A stretch of DNA of 20,480 nt from a virus: the IMG/VR virus record IMGVR_UViG_3300050123_000057, positions 1-20,480 of that record; one strand, 5' to 3'. Made by a program: the position numbers and the translations under genes. Under the pieces are notes generated by a model. It was not told the DNA's origin. It ran no database searches and saw only the letters and a list, made by a program, of their open reading frames with translations. This document shows positions 3,729 through 13,954 of this stretch, in pieces; within the stretch, counting starts at the first letter, position 1; every line of letters begins with the position of its first letter.

Positions 3729-4583
3729 TTAATATTTCCATTTCTTCATGGAGGTTTCGATTGCTTTTTTGTGTTTTAACTGCTCACTTGTAGACATTGC
3801 CTTGACTTCATCTACTGTATAGAAGTCTTTGTCTGCCGCAGAAGAACCCGACGCGACGCTTCCTGTGGTCGCATCTGAATTCGTCTTGTTGCCGGTAAGC
3901 ACGGCCACTGTGGCTTTCAATTCGTCCATTTCTTTTCTGTTGTCTTTGATTGCCTTGTCGGACGCATAAATCTTGTGAGCTGCGGTGACGCTCATACCCT
4001 CATTAGCTGCCATGATATTAACAAGTGCGTCGTGGACTTCATCCGGTATTGAGATTTTACCGTCCTTGTAATACTCGGGGTTGTCGCGGATTAACTGATC
4101 GAACTGCCCCTGCTGTTTTTGCTGAGTTTGTGAAAGTTGCTCACGTTTTGACGTAAGGATCTCCCCAGCCCTTTTGTCGGCCTCTATACTGGCAAGGCGT
4201 GTTGAAACTGCGTCACTGTTTCCCTCTTCGGAAATTGCCCTGTAGGTGTCGTCATAGACTTTCTGCGCAATAGCTTTTTCATCGGGTGTTAAGTCTACCT
4301 GAGGGGCGACCGGCGTGAGGGTAGGCACTGTACCGCCTAATAACCTTGACAGTTTCGCTTGCTTTACGTCGTTGTAACTCCTAACGCCAGGTATGCCGTA
4401 AATGTCGGCCATTTCAGCGACGGCCTTATCGCGCTCATTTGTGCGTCTTATATCGGCTTGCCTTGTGTTTTCCTCGGCAGACTGTGCAGGGGATTTTTCC
4501 TGTTCGGCGACTACAGGAGTTTCTACGCCATCGGTTTGAGGCTGAACGACTTCCTCTGTTACGTCCAAATTTTCGCTTTCCAT
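3729..4583 (-). CDS. Capsid scaffolding protein, 284 aa
   Basis: A highly charged, Glu/Gln/Lys-rich protein with predicted long helices and little hydrophobic core. It has an acidic, Pro/Val-rich N-terminus (residues 1-45), a central helical rod rich in Gln around residues 140-165, a low-complexity Ser/Gly/Thr linker near 235-250, and a short basic helix-turn-helix-like C-terminus (YTVDEVKAMSTSEQLKHKK onward). P22-type scaffolds bind coat through exactly such a basic C-terminal helical hairpin. It sits immediately upstream of the major capsid gene. The ATG at 4583 follows GAAAGGA. It would direct procapsid assembly and then leave before or during DNA packaging. No protease motif is seen in it. 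Confidence 0.82.
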   Translation of the reverse strand: MESENLDVTEEVVQPQTDGVETPVVAEQEKSPAQSAEENTRQADIRRTNERDKAVAEMADIYGIPGVRSYNDVKQAKLSRLLGGTVPTLTPVAPQVDLTPDEKAIAQKVYDDTYRAISEEGNSDAVSTRLASIEADKRAGEILTSKREQLSQTQQKQQGQFDQLIRDNPEYYKDGKISIPDEVHDALVNIMAANEGMSVTAAHKIYASDKAIKDNRKEMDELKATVAVLTGNKTNSDATTGSVASGSSAADKDFYTVDEVKAMSTSEQLKHKKAIETSMKKWKY

Positions 4584-4693: not shown

Positions 4694-4840
4694 TTACTTT
4701 TTATGCGGTTCCAAGTTGATAATTCCAGAACTCGTTGCCAAAACATGAGTGACTTCTTTACATTTGGGGCATATTTTCATGACTTCCCCATTTGCTTCAC
4801 ACAAGAGTTTTCCGCAATGAACGCATTTTATTTTCTGCAC
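4694..4840 (-). CDS. Com-like zinc-finger protein (small zinc ribbon), 48 aa
   Basis: A 48-aa reading frame starting with GTG at 4840. The sequence IKCVHCGKLLCEANGE leads to MKICPKCKEVTHVLA, giving C-x2-C and C-x2-C pairs that are the zinc knuckles of the phage Mu Com family. Mu Com is a small RNA-binding protein that opens the translation start of the mom DNA-modification mRNA; homologues are common in Firmicutes phages beside head genes, usually without mom. The GTG follows directly on the TGA of the preceding gene and is in the same frame, so it relies on translational coupling or on rare stop readthrough. The terminator lies about 20 bases after its stop. I am confident of the zinc-finger type but not of the RNA target. 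Confidence 0.75.
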   Translation of the reverse strand: MQKIKCVHCGKLLCEANGEVMKICPKCKEVTHVLATSSGIINLEPHKK

Positions 4841-11416: not shown

Positions 11417-11445
11417 TTGACATGTCGTTACACTGGGTATACAAT
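11417..11445 (+). promoter_or_regulatory. Sigma-A promoter of the plus-strand accessory operon
   Basis: TTGACA (11417-11422), a 17-base spacer and TACAAT (11440-11445). The J-domain gene starts 37 bases later with GAAGGGGA as its ribosome binding site. It probably drives the whole set of genes up to the terminator at 13641. Confidence 0.85.
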
Positions 11446-11481: not shown

Positions 11482-11955
11482 ATGTATTTCAGCAATGTAA
11501 AGACGCTTGAAGATTTAAAAAAAGAATACCGGGCTCTTTGTTTTATCCATCATCCCGACGCAGGAGGCACAACGGAAAACATGCAGAAATTAAATAGCGA
11601 ATATGAGAAACTTTTTATAATCTTAAAGGATCGCCACAACAGCACCGCAACCGAAGAGAACAAAATTAACGAGATGCCCGAAGAGTTTATAAACATCATT
11701 TCAAAAATCAATTATCTTGACGGGATTGAAATTGAAATCTGCGGCCGGTGGTTATGGATATCGGGCAACACAATAGCATACCGAGAGATTTTAAAAAATG
11801 CGGGTTGCCGGTGGGCAAGTAAAAAACTTATGTGGTACTGGCACAGTGTAAATGAGCCGACCGTCTACCACAAAAAGACATTTTCGATTGACGAGATCAG
11901 ACAGAAATACGGCAGCGGAAAAATAGACAGCAAAGAAGAAAAGAAAATTGCATAA
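11482..11955 (+). CDS. J-domain (DnaJ-like) accessory protein, 157 aa
   Basis: Residues ~5-48 form a compact J domain: LEDLKKEYRALCFIHHPDAG carries the diagnostic HPD, followed by a third helix (MQKLNSEYEKLF). The HPD loop is what stimulates the ATPase of DnaK. The rest is not a normal DnaJ: there is no Gly/Phe region or zinc centre. Instead a C-terminal domain (GIEIEICGRWLWISGNTIAY, then NAGCRWASKKLMWYW) rich in Trp is present, as in the J-domain proteins carried by many Clostridia mobile elements. A plausible role is recruiting host DnaK to a phage process such as replication. It is first in its operon; its stop is one base before a hammerhead ribozyme. Confidence 0.85.
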   Translation: MYFSNVKTLEDLKKEYRALCFIHHPDAGGTTENMQKLNSEYEKLFIILKDRHNSTATEENKINEMPEEFINIISKINYLDGIEIEICGRWLWISGNTIAYREILKNAGCRWASKKLMWYWHSVNEPTVYHKKTFSIDEIRQKYGSGKIDSKEEKKIA

Positions 11956-12007
11956 ATGCCCTGACGAGCTTGTGAAAATCAGGCGAAACCCCTTCGGGGG
12001 TCGGCAT
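11956..12007 (+). ncRNA. Type I hammerhead ribozyme
   Basis: All conserved parts are present. Stem I ATGCC (11956-11960) pairs with GGCAT (12003-12007). The core CTGACGA is at 11961-11967. Stem II GCTTG (11968-11972) pairs with CAGGC (11980-11984) around TGAAAAT. GAAA is at 11985-11988. Stem III is A+CCCC (11988-11992), a TTCG tetraloop, and GGGG+T (11997-12001). The cleavage base is C12002. Stem I is the open stem, hence type I. Self-cleavage after 12002 would split the operon mRNA between the J-domain gene and the next gene, leaving a 5'-OH RNA 34 bases ahead of its start. It begins directly after the upstream stop codon. Confidence 0.93.
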
Positions 12008-12036
12008 ACAAAATAAATAAAAAGAAGGTCTTTATA

Positions 12037-12408
12037 ATGACAAGAAATATTCAGAAAATGGTTAAGGAAAACAAGCAGAGAGCCGCCGAACTCGTCCGGT
12101 ACGCAAATCCGAAAAGCAAAAGCAAACCGCCTGTAGAGCGTATTACCGAACTTTTAAAAGAATACATCCCATATCGCTATGACGAGGGAAAACCCGAGAT
12201 TACAAATTTCAGCGTGACAAGATGGAATGTAAACCGCATCATAAGGTCAGCACAATTTAGGGTTGAAACTTCAAACGGCAAGGTTTTTGAGATTGACGCA
12301 TACCAACACCTTACAGGCAGGACACAAGAACAAAAGGAGCAGGACAAAACCGCAGACTTTCCGAGTGGGTTGTTTAACATCTTCCATTCTGAATTAATCG
12401 CAGAGTGA
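12037..12408 (+). CDS. Hypothetical protein, 123 aa
   Basis: A 123-aa protein with a strongly basic N-terminus (residues 1-30, KENKQRAAELVRYANPKSKS) and a mixed alpha/beta remainder (SVTRWNVNRIIRSAQFRVET, then NGKVFEIDAYQHLTGR). No family is recognised. The ATG follows AAGAAGG. Its 5' leader is generated by the hammerhead ribozyme 34 bases upstream, so its translation may depend on, or be altered by, RNA cleavage. The basic first third could contact nucleic acid. Confidence 0.7.
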   Translation: MTRNIQKMVKENKQRAAELVRYANPKSKSKPPVERITELLKEYIPYRYDEGKPEITNFSVTRWNVNRIIRSAQFRVETSNGKVFEIDAYQHLTGRTQEQKEQDKTADFPSGLFNIFHSELIAE

Positions 12409-12457
12409 GCCGCTCAGGCGGCTTAATGCGGCAAGACGGTCACAAGCCCGTCACGCA
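12408..12457 (+). other. Two tandem RNA hairpins upstream of the 62-aa gene
   Basis: AGCCGC-TCAG-GCGGCT (12408-12423) is a perfect six-bp tetraloop hairpin overlapping the upstream stop codon. It is followed by a second structure (12427-12457): outer TGCG/CGCA, inner GACGG/CCGTC, with an asymmetric internal loop. Neither has a T-run, so they are unlikely to be terminators. They fill the same intergenic position as the hammerhead in the previous gap but lack its core. Confidence 0.5.
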
Positions 12458-12478: not shown

Positions 12479-12667
12479 ATGAAATATTACGTTGAGACTA
12501 AATTTTTTAACAACGGAAAAACCAGTGGCAGGATGTACCTGGAATCAGAAGCTGTTAGCCTTGATAAAACACCTTACACTGAATGCAAAAATTACGATCG
12601 TTATGTTGATGAATTTGCAAGTTATGAAAAAGCGGGAAAGTTTTTAAATGATCTTAAACTCGCATAA
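12479..12667 (+). CDS. Hypothetical protein, 62 aa
   Basis: A 62-aa protein beginning KYYVETKFFNNGKTSGRMYL and ending DEFASYEKAGKFLNDLKLA: two beta strands followed by a helix. Similar small beta-alpha proteins occur in accessory operons of Clostridia mobile elements, but I cannot name a family. Ribosome binding site CGGAGG lies ahead of the ATG. It lies in the plus-strand operon between a structured RNA gap and another small gene. Confidence 0.68.
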   Translation: MKYYVETKFFNNGKTSGRMYLESEAVSLDKTPYTECKNYDRYVDEFASYEKAGKFLNDLKLA

Positions 12668-12923: not shown

Positions 12924-12934
12924 CACGCTTCTAA

Positions 12935-12953
12935 AGGGCCGAGCATCGGCCCT
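12935..12953 (+). other. Perfect 8-bp hairpin between accessory genes
   Basis: AGGGCCGA-GCA-TCGGCCCT, a strong GC-rich stem with a three-base loop, 11 bases past the stop of the 66-aa gene. It is followed by ATTCC rather than a T-run, so it probably shapes mRNA stability rather than terminates. Confidence 0.5.
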
Positions 12954-12984
12954 ATTCCATCCCAAAATTTAAGGAGGTATGAAA

Positions 12985-13428
12985 ATGAACACTTACAAAA
13001 TTATGAAAGAAAAACATCAAAATGAGGTCAACGCTTTCCCGATGGCATTTGCTTTTAGTCAAAAACAATTTGAAGAGGGTATGCAAAAACTCGGTCTTAA
13101 TCCGACAGATACAGACAAGATTTATAAGCTTCACTCAACCGGTGGATTTTATCGGCGTAGCGATGCAAAGTTATTGCGCCAAATGTACTACCGCAATCAA
13201 AAACACACGGCCGGCGCAATCGAAAACGACAAAACCGGTGATGGTTTTATTTTTGAAATGTTTGATTATGAGCTGGGCAATTATGAGTATGTTATAACTT
13301 GCAGCACCGAGAACACCCTGGACGCACTTGGAATGACCGAAGAAGAAGTAAATAGTAATCCTGCACTTTTACACGGGCTTCAAAAAGCTTGCAACGCTCA
13401 GAAAGAATGGTATATACTTAACGGGTAA
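12985..13428 (+). CDS. Conserved mobile-element protein (DUF7659-like), 147 aa
   Basis: The phrases FPMAFAFSQKQFEEGMQKLG, then NPTDTDKIYKL...GGFYRRSD and KTGDGFIFEMFDYELGNYEY match a small protein family I remember from many gut Firmicutes phages and conjugative elements, annotated only as a domain of unknown function. The family usually accompanies J-domain and other small accessory genes, as here. I prefer ATG 12985, seven bases after AAGGAGG; the ATG at 12979 is too close to that site. No catalytic motif is apparent. The DUF number is from memory and less certain than the family resemblance. Confidence 0.7.
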   Translation: MNTYKIMKEKHQNEVNAFPMAFAFSQKQFEEGMQKLGLNPTDTDKIYKLHSTGGFYRRSDAKLLRQMYYRNQKHTAGAIENDKTGDGFIFEMFDYELGNYEYVITCSTENTLDALGMTEEEVNSNPALLHGLQKACNAQKEWYILNG

Positions 13429-13475: not shown

Positions 13476-13616
13476 ATGGCAAGAAAGCAACACGGTTTCA
13501 GGCTCAGTGACGAAGTGTTTAAAATCCTTCACGATCAGGCGACGCGAGAAACCCGCAGCATGGCTCAGCAGATCGAGCACCTTGTTTTAAAAGAAGAAAA
13601 AACTATCAACCCGTAG
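13476..13616 (+). CDS. Ribbon-helix-helix (Arc-like) small DNA-binding protein, 46 aa
   Basis: A 46-aa protein. Residues 6-12 (HGFRLSD) give the beta ribbon, followed by helix 1 (EVFKILHDQATRETR) and helix 2 after the turn (SMAQQIEHLVLKEE), the classic Arc/MetJ/CopG layout in which a dimer inserts its ribbon into the major groove. AAAGGAG precedes the ATG. It is the last gene of the plus-strand operon, just before the bidirectional terminator, and may autoregulate that operon or its divergent neighbour. No toxin gene is next to it, so an antitoxin role is not supported. Confidence 0.78.
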   Translation: MARKQHGFRLSDEVFKILHDQATRETRSMAQQIEHLVLKEEKTINP

Positions 13617-13640
13617 GTAAATAGAAATTGTGTTAAAAGC

Positions 13641-13669
13641 AAAAGCCCTGTCTATATGACGGGGCTTTT
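13641..13669. terminator. Bidirectional terminator between converging operons
   Basis: AAAAGCCCTGTC and GACGGGGCTTTT pair over 12 bases (one G-T) around TATAT. A-runs on one side and T-runs on the other allow termination in both directions. It separates the plus-strand accessory operon from the minus-strand replication operon, whose last gene ends inside its loop. Confidence 0.88.
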
Positions 13670-13954
13670 ACTTTCGCAAGAACATAGCCTTTTTATCATT
13701 TTATCTTGATAATCTGCAGCCGGTTTATATCGGCCTCTGATAATTTTGCTCACAAATATGTCATCTGTCGATGCGTCTGTTGAGTTTGCAAACTTTTGCG
13801 CCAGTTCCCACGCCTTTGCTTCGGATTCAATCAATGGTTCATCCTTTTCGGGAAATTGATCCAGCCTGCAAATGGCCCCGATATGCACCGAGAAATTTAC
13901 GACATACCCGTCCCTGCTGTTCTCAATGATTTTCAAGGCATATTCCATTTTCAT
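13652..13954 (-). CDS. Hypothetical protein, 100 aa
   Basis: The N-terminal half is beta-rich (YALKIIENSRDGYVVNFSVH), then SEAKAWELAQKFANSTDAST forms a helix, and the C-terminus holds two Cys (LCSCES). No family is recognised. The ATG at 13954 follows AGGGGGTG; a second ATG at 13948 is nearly as good. It is the last gene of the leftward replication operon and its stop codon lies in the loop of the terminator. Confidence 0.66.
   Translation of the reverse strand: MKMEYALKIIENSRDGYVVNFSVHIGAICRLDQFPEKDEPLIESEAKAWELAQKFANSTDASTDDIFVSKIIRGRYKPAADYQDKMIKRLCSCESKSPVI

Follow-up and report, generated by a model that had tools for sequence, protein, structure and literature searches.

The window analysed here is a stretch of 20,480 nucleotides (positions 1 to 20,480 of IMG/VR virus record IMGVR_UViG_3300050123_000057), and it contains a rightward accessory operon whose signals, genes and ribozymes, as described below, all lie on the plus strand. 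A promoter-like site of the operon, TTGACA-17-TACAAT (11417–11445), stands 5' of the J gene; it was picked up in a consensus scan with 11 of 12 matches and is a consensus match only. The J gene (11482–11955) is an open reading frame for a J-domain-like protein of 157 aa that ends in a TAA stop at 11953–11955. Its match to Pfam DnaJ is weak (20.4 bits, under the cut-off), and it matches PHROG 15863 at 3e-44. Next come a type I hammerhead ribozyme (11956–12007) and gene 2 (12037–12408), which encodes a 123-aa protein without assigned function that has no Pfam or PHROG match and has homologues in loci L002–L004 (46–59%). The TGA stop of gene 2 (12406–12408) lies inside the motif of a second ribozyme, a Twister-P5 element at 12399–12451. 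Gene 3 (12479–12667), an open reading frame for 62 aa without assigned function, and a gene for a DUF7659 protein (12979–13428; Pfam PF24692, 1.5e-46) lie further downstream. By eye, we also observed a simple hairpin, GGGCCGA-GCA-UCGGCCC, between operon genes at 12924–12978, and, at the operon end (13613–13675), a long hairpin, flanked by A/T-rich sequence, that resembles a bidirectional terminator; both gave weak ohsC_RNA matches.

The initial annotation had described a complete type I hammerhead with a TTCG-capped stem III at 11956–12007, and the sequence bears this out in every element. Stem I pairs 11956–11960 with 12003–12007 (AUGCC/GGCAU, five pairs), and the core CUGACGA occupies 11961–11967. 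Stem II pairs 11968–11972 with 11980–11984 (GCUUG/CAGGC, five pairs including one G-U) and carries the loop UGAAAAU, after which GAA and A15.1 fill 11985–11988. Stem III pairs 11989–11992 with 11997–12000 (CCCC/GGGG, four pairs in addition to A15.1-U16.1) around a UUCG loop, reading CCCC-UUCG-GGGG at 11989–12000. With U16.1 at 12001 and C17 at 12002, the predicted cut falls at 12002^12003. All bases of the type I core (C3 U4 G5 A6 N7 G8 A9, G12 A13 A14, A15.1-U16.1, H17) are found within 11961–12002, and the helices have the type I arrangement, in which stem I is open-ended and stems II and III are closed by loops. The placement described earlier is also exact: the first base of stem I, 11956, directly follows the J-gene stop, and the cut is followed by 34 nt (12003–12036) before the ATG at 12037. 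This 34-nt segment, which would remain as the gene 2 leader after cleavage, contains a Shine-Dalgarno-like AAGAAGG.

The minimum-energy fold of the element is the same structure as the one read from the sequence. Its folding energy is ordinary (z −1.5), and the case for the hammerhead rests on the core and on covariation rather than on energy. A strict type I descriptor matched the window once, and it found no match in 3.07 Mb of random Markov sequence with the dinucleotide statistics of the window.

A match to an Rfam type I model had been expected as well, and this expectation failed. RF00163 (Hammerhead_1) did not match the window and no Rfam hammerhead reached the gathering threshold there; the best in a permissive search was RAGATH-1-hammerhead RF03152, with 19.0 bits (cut-off 56.3). 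The window element shares the hammerhead core and a 5-bp stem I with RF03152, whereas the upstream hairpin of that family is at best weakly present in it. The missing match is uninformative, because Rfam also found none of the hammerheads in 12 other viral loci that are rich in clear ones, several of which form arrays of four or five. These results indicate that phage hammerheads of this class escape the current Rfam models, and that counts made with those models are underestimates. Therefore, we built our own covariance model, R1, from 28 phage and prokaryote hammerheads; these had come up in a DNA pattern search of viral contigs and prokaryote genomes, and neither the window nor any near copy of it was included. 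R1 gave a single match in the window, at 11952–12010, with 66.9 bits and E = 9.9e-19.

Could 11956–12007 be a decayed or fortuitous hammerhead-like fold that is inactive? The lack of an Rfam gathering match and the unexceptional folding energy would both fit such a fold. We nevertheless regard it as highly improbable, since the core is perfect, the score against an independent model is high, the descriptor is silent in random sequence, and the stop codon and next start stand at the modal position and a typical distance, respectively, as detailed below.

The relatives point in the same direction. We defined a hammerhead subclass by the loop II sequence GUGARA, and the 178 subclass matches listed were picked on the core and stem II only. 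As 146 of these 178 also form stem I, U16.1, H17 and stem III, most of the listed matches are whole hammerheads. In the alignment of the 28 sequences, 10 of 15 pairs vary on both sides and 99.5% of the cells are paired, and covariation is 0.609, compared with 0.184 in shuffled and at most 0.11 in slid controls; because these 28 rows were pre-filtered for pairing, the count of 146 among 178 carries less bias. Four-base loops III were GNRA or UNCG in 136 of 176 cases among the matches listed. The relatives conserve GUGA at loop II and an A at −6 and frequently have an A at +6, a pattern consistent with a tertiary contact between loop II and the bases beyond stem I. A near-identical contig (L125, 99.9%) carries both ribozymes unchanged, with differences too few to gauge constraint. 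Legionella, Clostridium, Paenibacillus, Mycolicibacter and archaea are among the listed genomes that carry the subclass. From the core, the pairing and the covariation, it is strongly supported that 11956–12007 is a genuine type I hammerhead on the sense strand, lying between two genes of a single operon, which is the intercistronic position originally assigned to it.

Two observations on the spread of the motif stand apart from this. The same core and loop II pattern occurs in eight archaeal assemblies of the Thaumarchaeota/Nitrososphaeria, Bathyarchaeota and Thermoplasmata (L226, L233, L244, L246, L256, L259, L263 and L265), where provirus or contamination is possible. Phage loci L011, L027, L039, L047, L094, L096 and L124 contain arrays of four to six hammerheads, most of them between consecutive genes.

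The ribozyme does not travel with its neighbours. No hammerhead was found at the homologous J-gene/gene 2 loci L002–L004 and L007, so neither gene needs one, and we rejected the idea that the ribozyme is conserved together with either of them.

The operon holds more ribozymes than the hammerhead: the Twister-P5 element at 12399–12451, which overlaps the gene 2 stop codon, is a clear member of Rfam RF02684 (60.1 bits, cut-off 37.6, E 1.7e-10). We take its cut to lie between 12424 (U) and 12425 (A), as expected from established twister knowledge. Its fold is unrelated to that of the hammerhead, and its placement at a stop codon is analogous. Gene 2 is thus bracketed by two unrelated ribozymes of the same polarity and, by position, should be released as a 422-nt single-gene RNA (12003–12424). 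At 13 Twister-P5 loci, the upstream open frame stops at −6 to −2 or at +6 of the motif; at the Twister-P5 locus L273, the longest upstream frame stops at −19 instead. Neither near the twister loci nor in the window did a strict descriptor find type II or III hammerheads, although it can miss real ones, as it did with an Rfam type II match in L305.

Such a bracket also invites the idea that the two ribozymes excise the gene 2 RNA for circularisation, giving a circular message. The polarity of the pair is right for this, and 5'-OH and 2',3'-cyclic phosphate ends are substrates for RtcB-type ligases. On the other hand, the other 12 Twister-P5 loci had no type I hammerhead in the DNA examined, and clustered hammerheads gave no detectable spliced or circular products (Perreault et al., PMC3088659). 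We consider a circular message very unlikely.

Another structured element came to light in these loci. In L007, after the J-gene relative, a compact pseudoknot of the form GCCG-N-[6–7 nt]-CGGC-UAAN-[complement]-AGAAAGG occurs at 4509–4535 and 4764–4788, and it recurs in L275, L276, L285, L289, L296, L305, L311, L334, L355 and about 25 further loci, nearly always just 5' of a start codon. It is fully paired at 33 of 81 sites, with 15 different stem pairs, compared with 0 or 1 of 81 in offset controls, and no Rfam match fell at the motif in the eight loci examined. The pseudoknot lies one gene from Twister-P5 in L275/L276 and near the type II hammerhead in L305. It may represent a regulatory RNA or a ribozyme that has not been described before.

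To describe where stop codons fall, we give the position of the first stop base relative to C3, with reading frames called by open-frame length rather than by annotation and with a hammerhead set that is a sample. Among the matches listed, 85 subclass hammerheads have a nearby upstream frame end, and the stop begins at −8 in 33 of them, at −7 in 19, at +1 in 11 (as U4-G5-A6 of the core) and at +12 in six (as a UGA at loop II). In an antisense control, none of 33 stops among the matches listed fell at −8, −7, +1 or +12. When each upstream protein family was counted once over all type I hammerheads listed, 139 of 193 stops lay between −9 and +20, that is, at the 5' edge of the ribozyme or inside it, with peaks at −8, −7 and +1. 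The distance from cut to next start, again among the matches listed, is usually ~25–40 nt (median 27–30 nt). The hammerhead of the window is typical, with its stop at −8 and 34 nt from cut to start. We did not find this stop-codon rule in the literature searched, the coverage of which was incomplete.

The UAA of the J gene spans −8 to −6, and its last two bases are the conserved [A/U]A element of the ribozyme, a conservation seen in at least 120 relatives. To whom do these bases belong? Among the matches listed, the A at −6 is 93–95% conserved whether the stop is at −8/−7 or elsewhere, and is present in 75% of the cases where no upstream frame was found. The U at −8, in contrast, occurs in 75% of the matches listed with a stop at −8/−7 and in 21–29% of those with a stop elsewhere. 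As the A is kept regardless of the stop, it belongs to the ribozyme, where it probably serves the contact with loop II. Consequently, with the A structural and the U linked to the stop, the [A/U]A of the ribozyme has been turned into UAA by an added U.

One account of this overlap is compaction of the stop codon and ribozyme into the smallest gap, with the transcript still being split and ribosomes being without influence. It shares transcript splitting with the explanation we favour and differs only in the ribosome step. Phage gaps are short, the Twister-P5 placement is compact too, and the hammerhead offers stops in three frames (the UAA before stem I, the core UGA and the loop II UGA), all of which are used. 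Any frame entering a hammerhead soon meets a UGA in the core or loop II. The use of these stops is uneven, however, with −8 and −7 dominating, and the U at −8 is enriched specifically where the stop is there. Selection for an early stop would fit this unevenness and does not require ribosome coupling. We judge the chances of compaction to be about even.

The explanation we favour, and hold with good confidence, is that 11956–12007 forms a functional type I hammerhead serving as intercistronic punctuation, possibly in competition with terminating ribosomes. Because the hammerhead abuts a stop codon, a second ribozyme ends the next gene, and the placement recurs beside at least 139 unrelated families, the products are probably single-gene messages. 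During transcription of the operon, the hammerhead would fold co-transcriptionally and cut after C12002, with the Twister-P5 that ends gene 2 cutting at 12424^12425. The polycistronic RNA would thereby be divided into a J-gene mRNA, the 422-nt gene 2 mRNA and a remainder with gene 3 onward. The 5' product of the hammerhead would carry the stop codon and stems II and III; the upstream mRNAs are therefore predicted to end a few dozen bases past their stop in a hairpin that bears a 2',3'-cyclic phosphate, while the downstream mRNAs would begin with a 5'-OH and a short leader. Cleavage and these end groups would follow from the established chemistry of both ribozymes.

What might the phage gain from such cuts? 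The original proposal that the split gives each half of the transcript its own stability and translation is a sound inference from the arrangement, and separate decay of each piece would be the likeliest benefit. We also considered whether cleavage unmasks a hidden Shine-Dalgarno sequence. The predicted folds of the gene 2 leader are identical before and after cleavage, so that this idea is unsupported, and it is unlikely that cleavage frees a hidden ribosome-binding site.

Judging by ribosome footprints in general, stem I and a portion of the core would be expected to lie under a ribosome whose A site is on 11953–11955. Since the stop abuts or overlaps the ribozyme, a terminating ribosome should cover these parts, and cleavage and termination should then compete; this competition, like the effects on RNA stability, is only an inference. 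A more general and rather doubtful extension is that intercistronic ribozymes of phages, though different in fold, act as translation-gated switches, in which a terminating ribosome on the shared stop nucleotides blocks cleavage. If this were true, segmentation of the operon would report the translation level of the upstream gene.

An association of hammerhead and twister genes with particular phage genes, and with further self-cleaving ribozymes, is known (PMC4604425). In prophages, clustered hammerheads of types I–III flank single genes or short blocks, and the processing of long transcripts was proposed as their role (Perreault et al. 2011, PMC3088659). Cleavage in vitro was shown for several of these arrays, and in E. 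coli as well for the A. tumefaciens ones (PMC3088659). Since such clustered phage hammerheads have been described, the hammerhead of the window joins an already known type, and it resembles them in flanking a single gene in a phage transcript. It differs in having a twister as its partner and in that stop-codon placement is quantified here; the term "stop codon" is absent from the main text of Perreault et al. 2011 (PMC3088659). The present analysis contributes the heterotypic ribozyme bracket together with the stop-codon rule. The bracket and a placement that holds across most of at least 193 families point to cutting right after the stop codon as the selected function, and the analogous placement in a second ribozyme fold, Twister-P5, supports the same conclusion.
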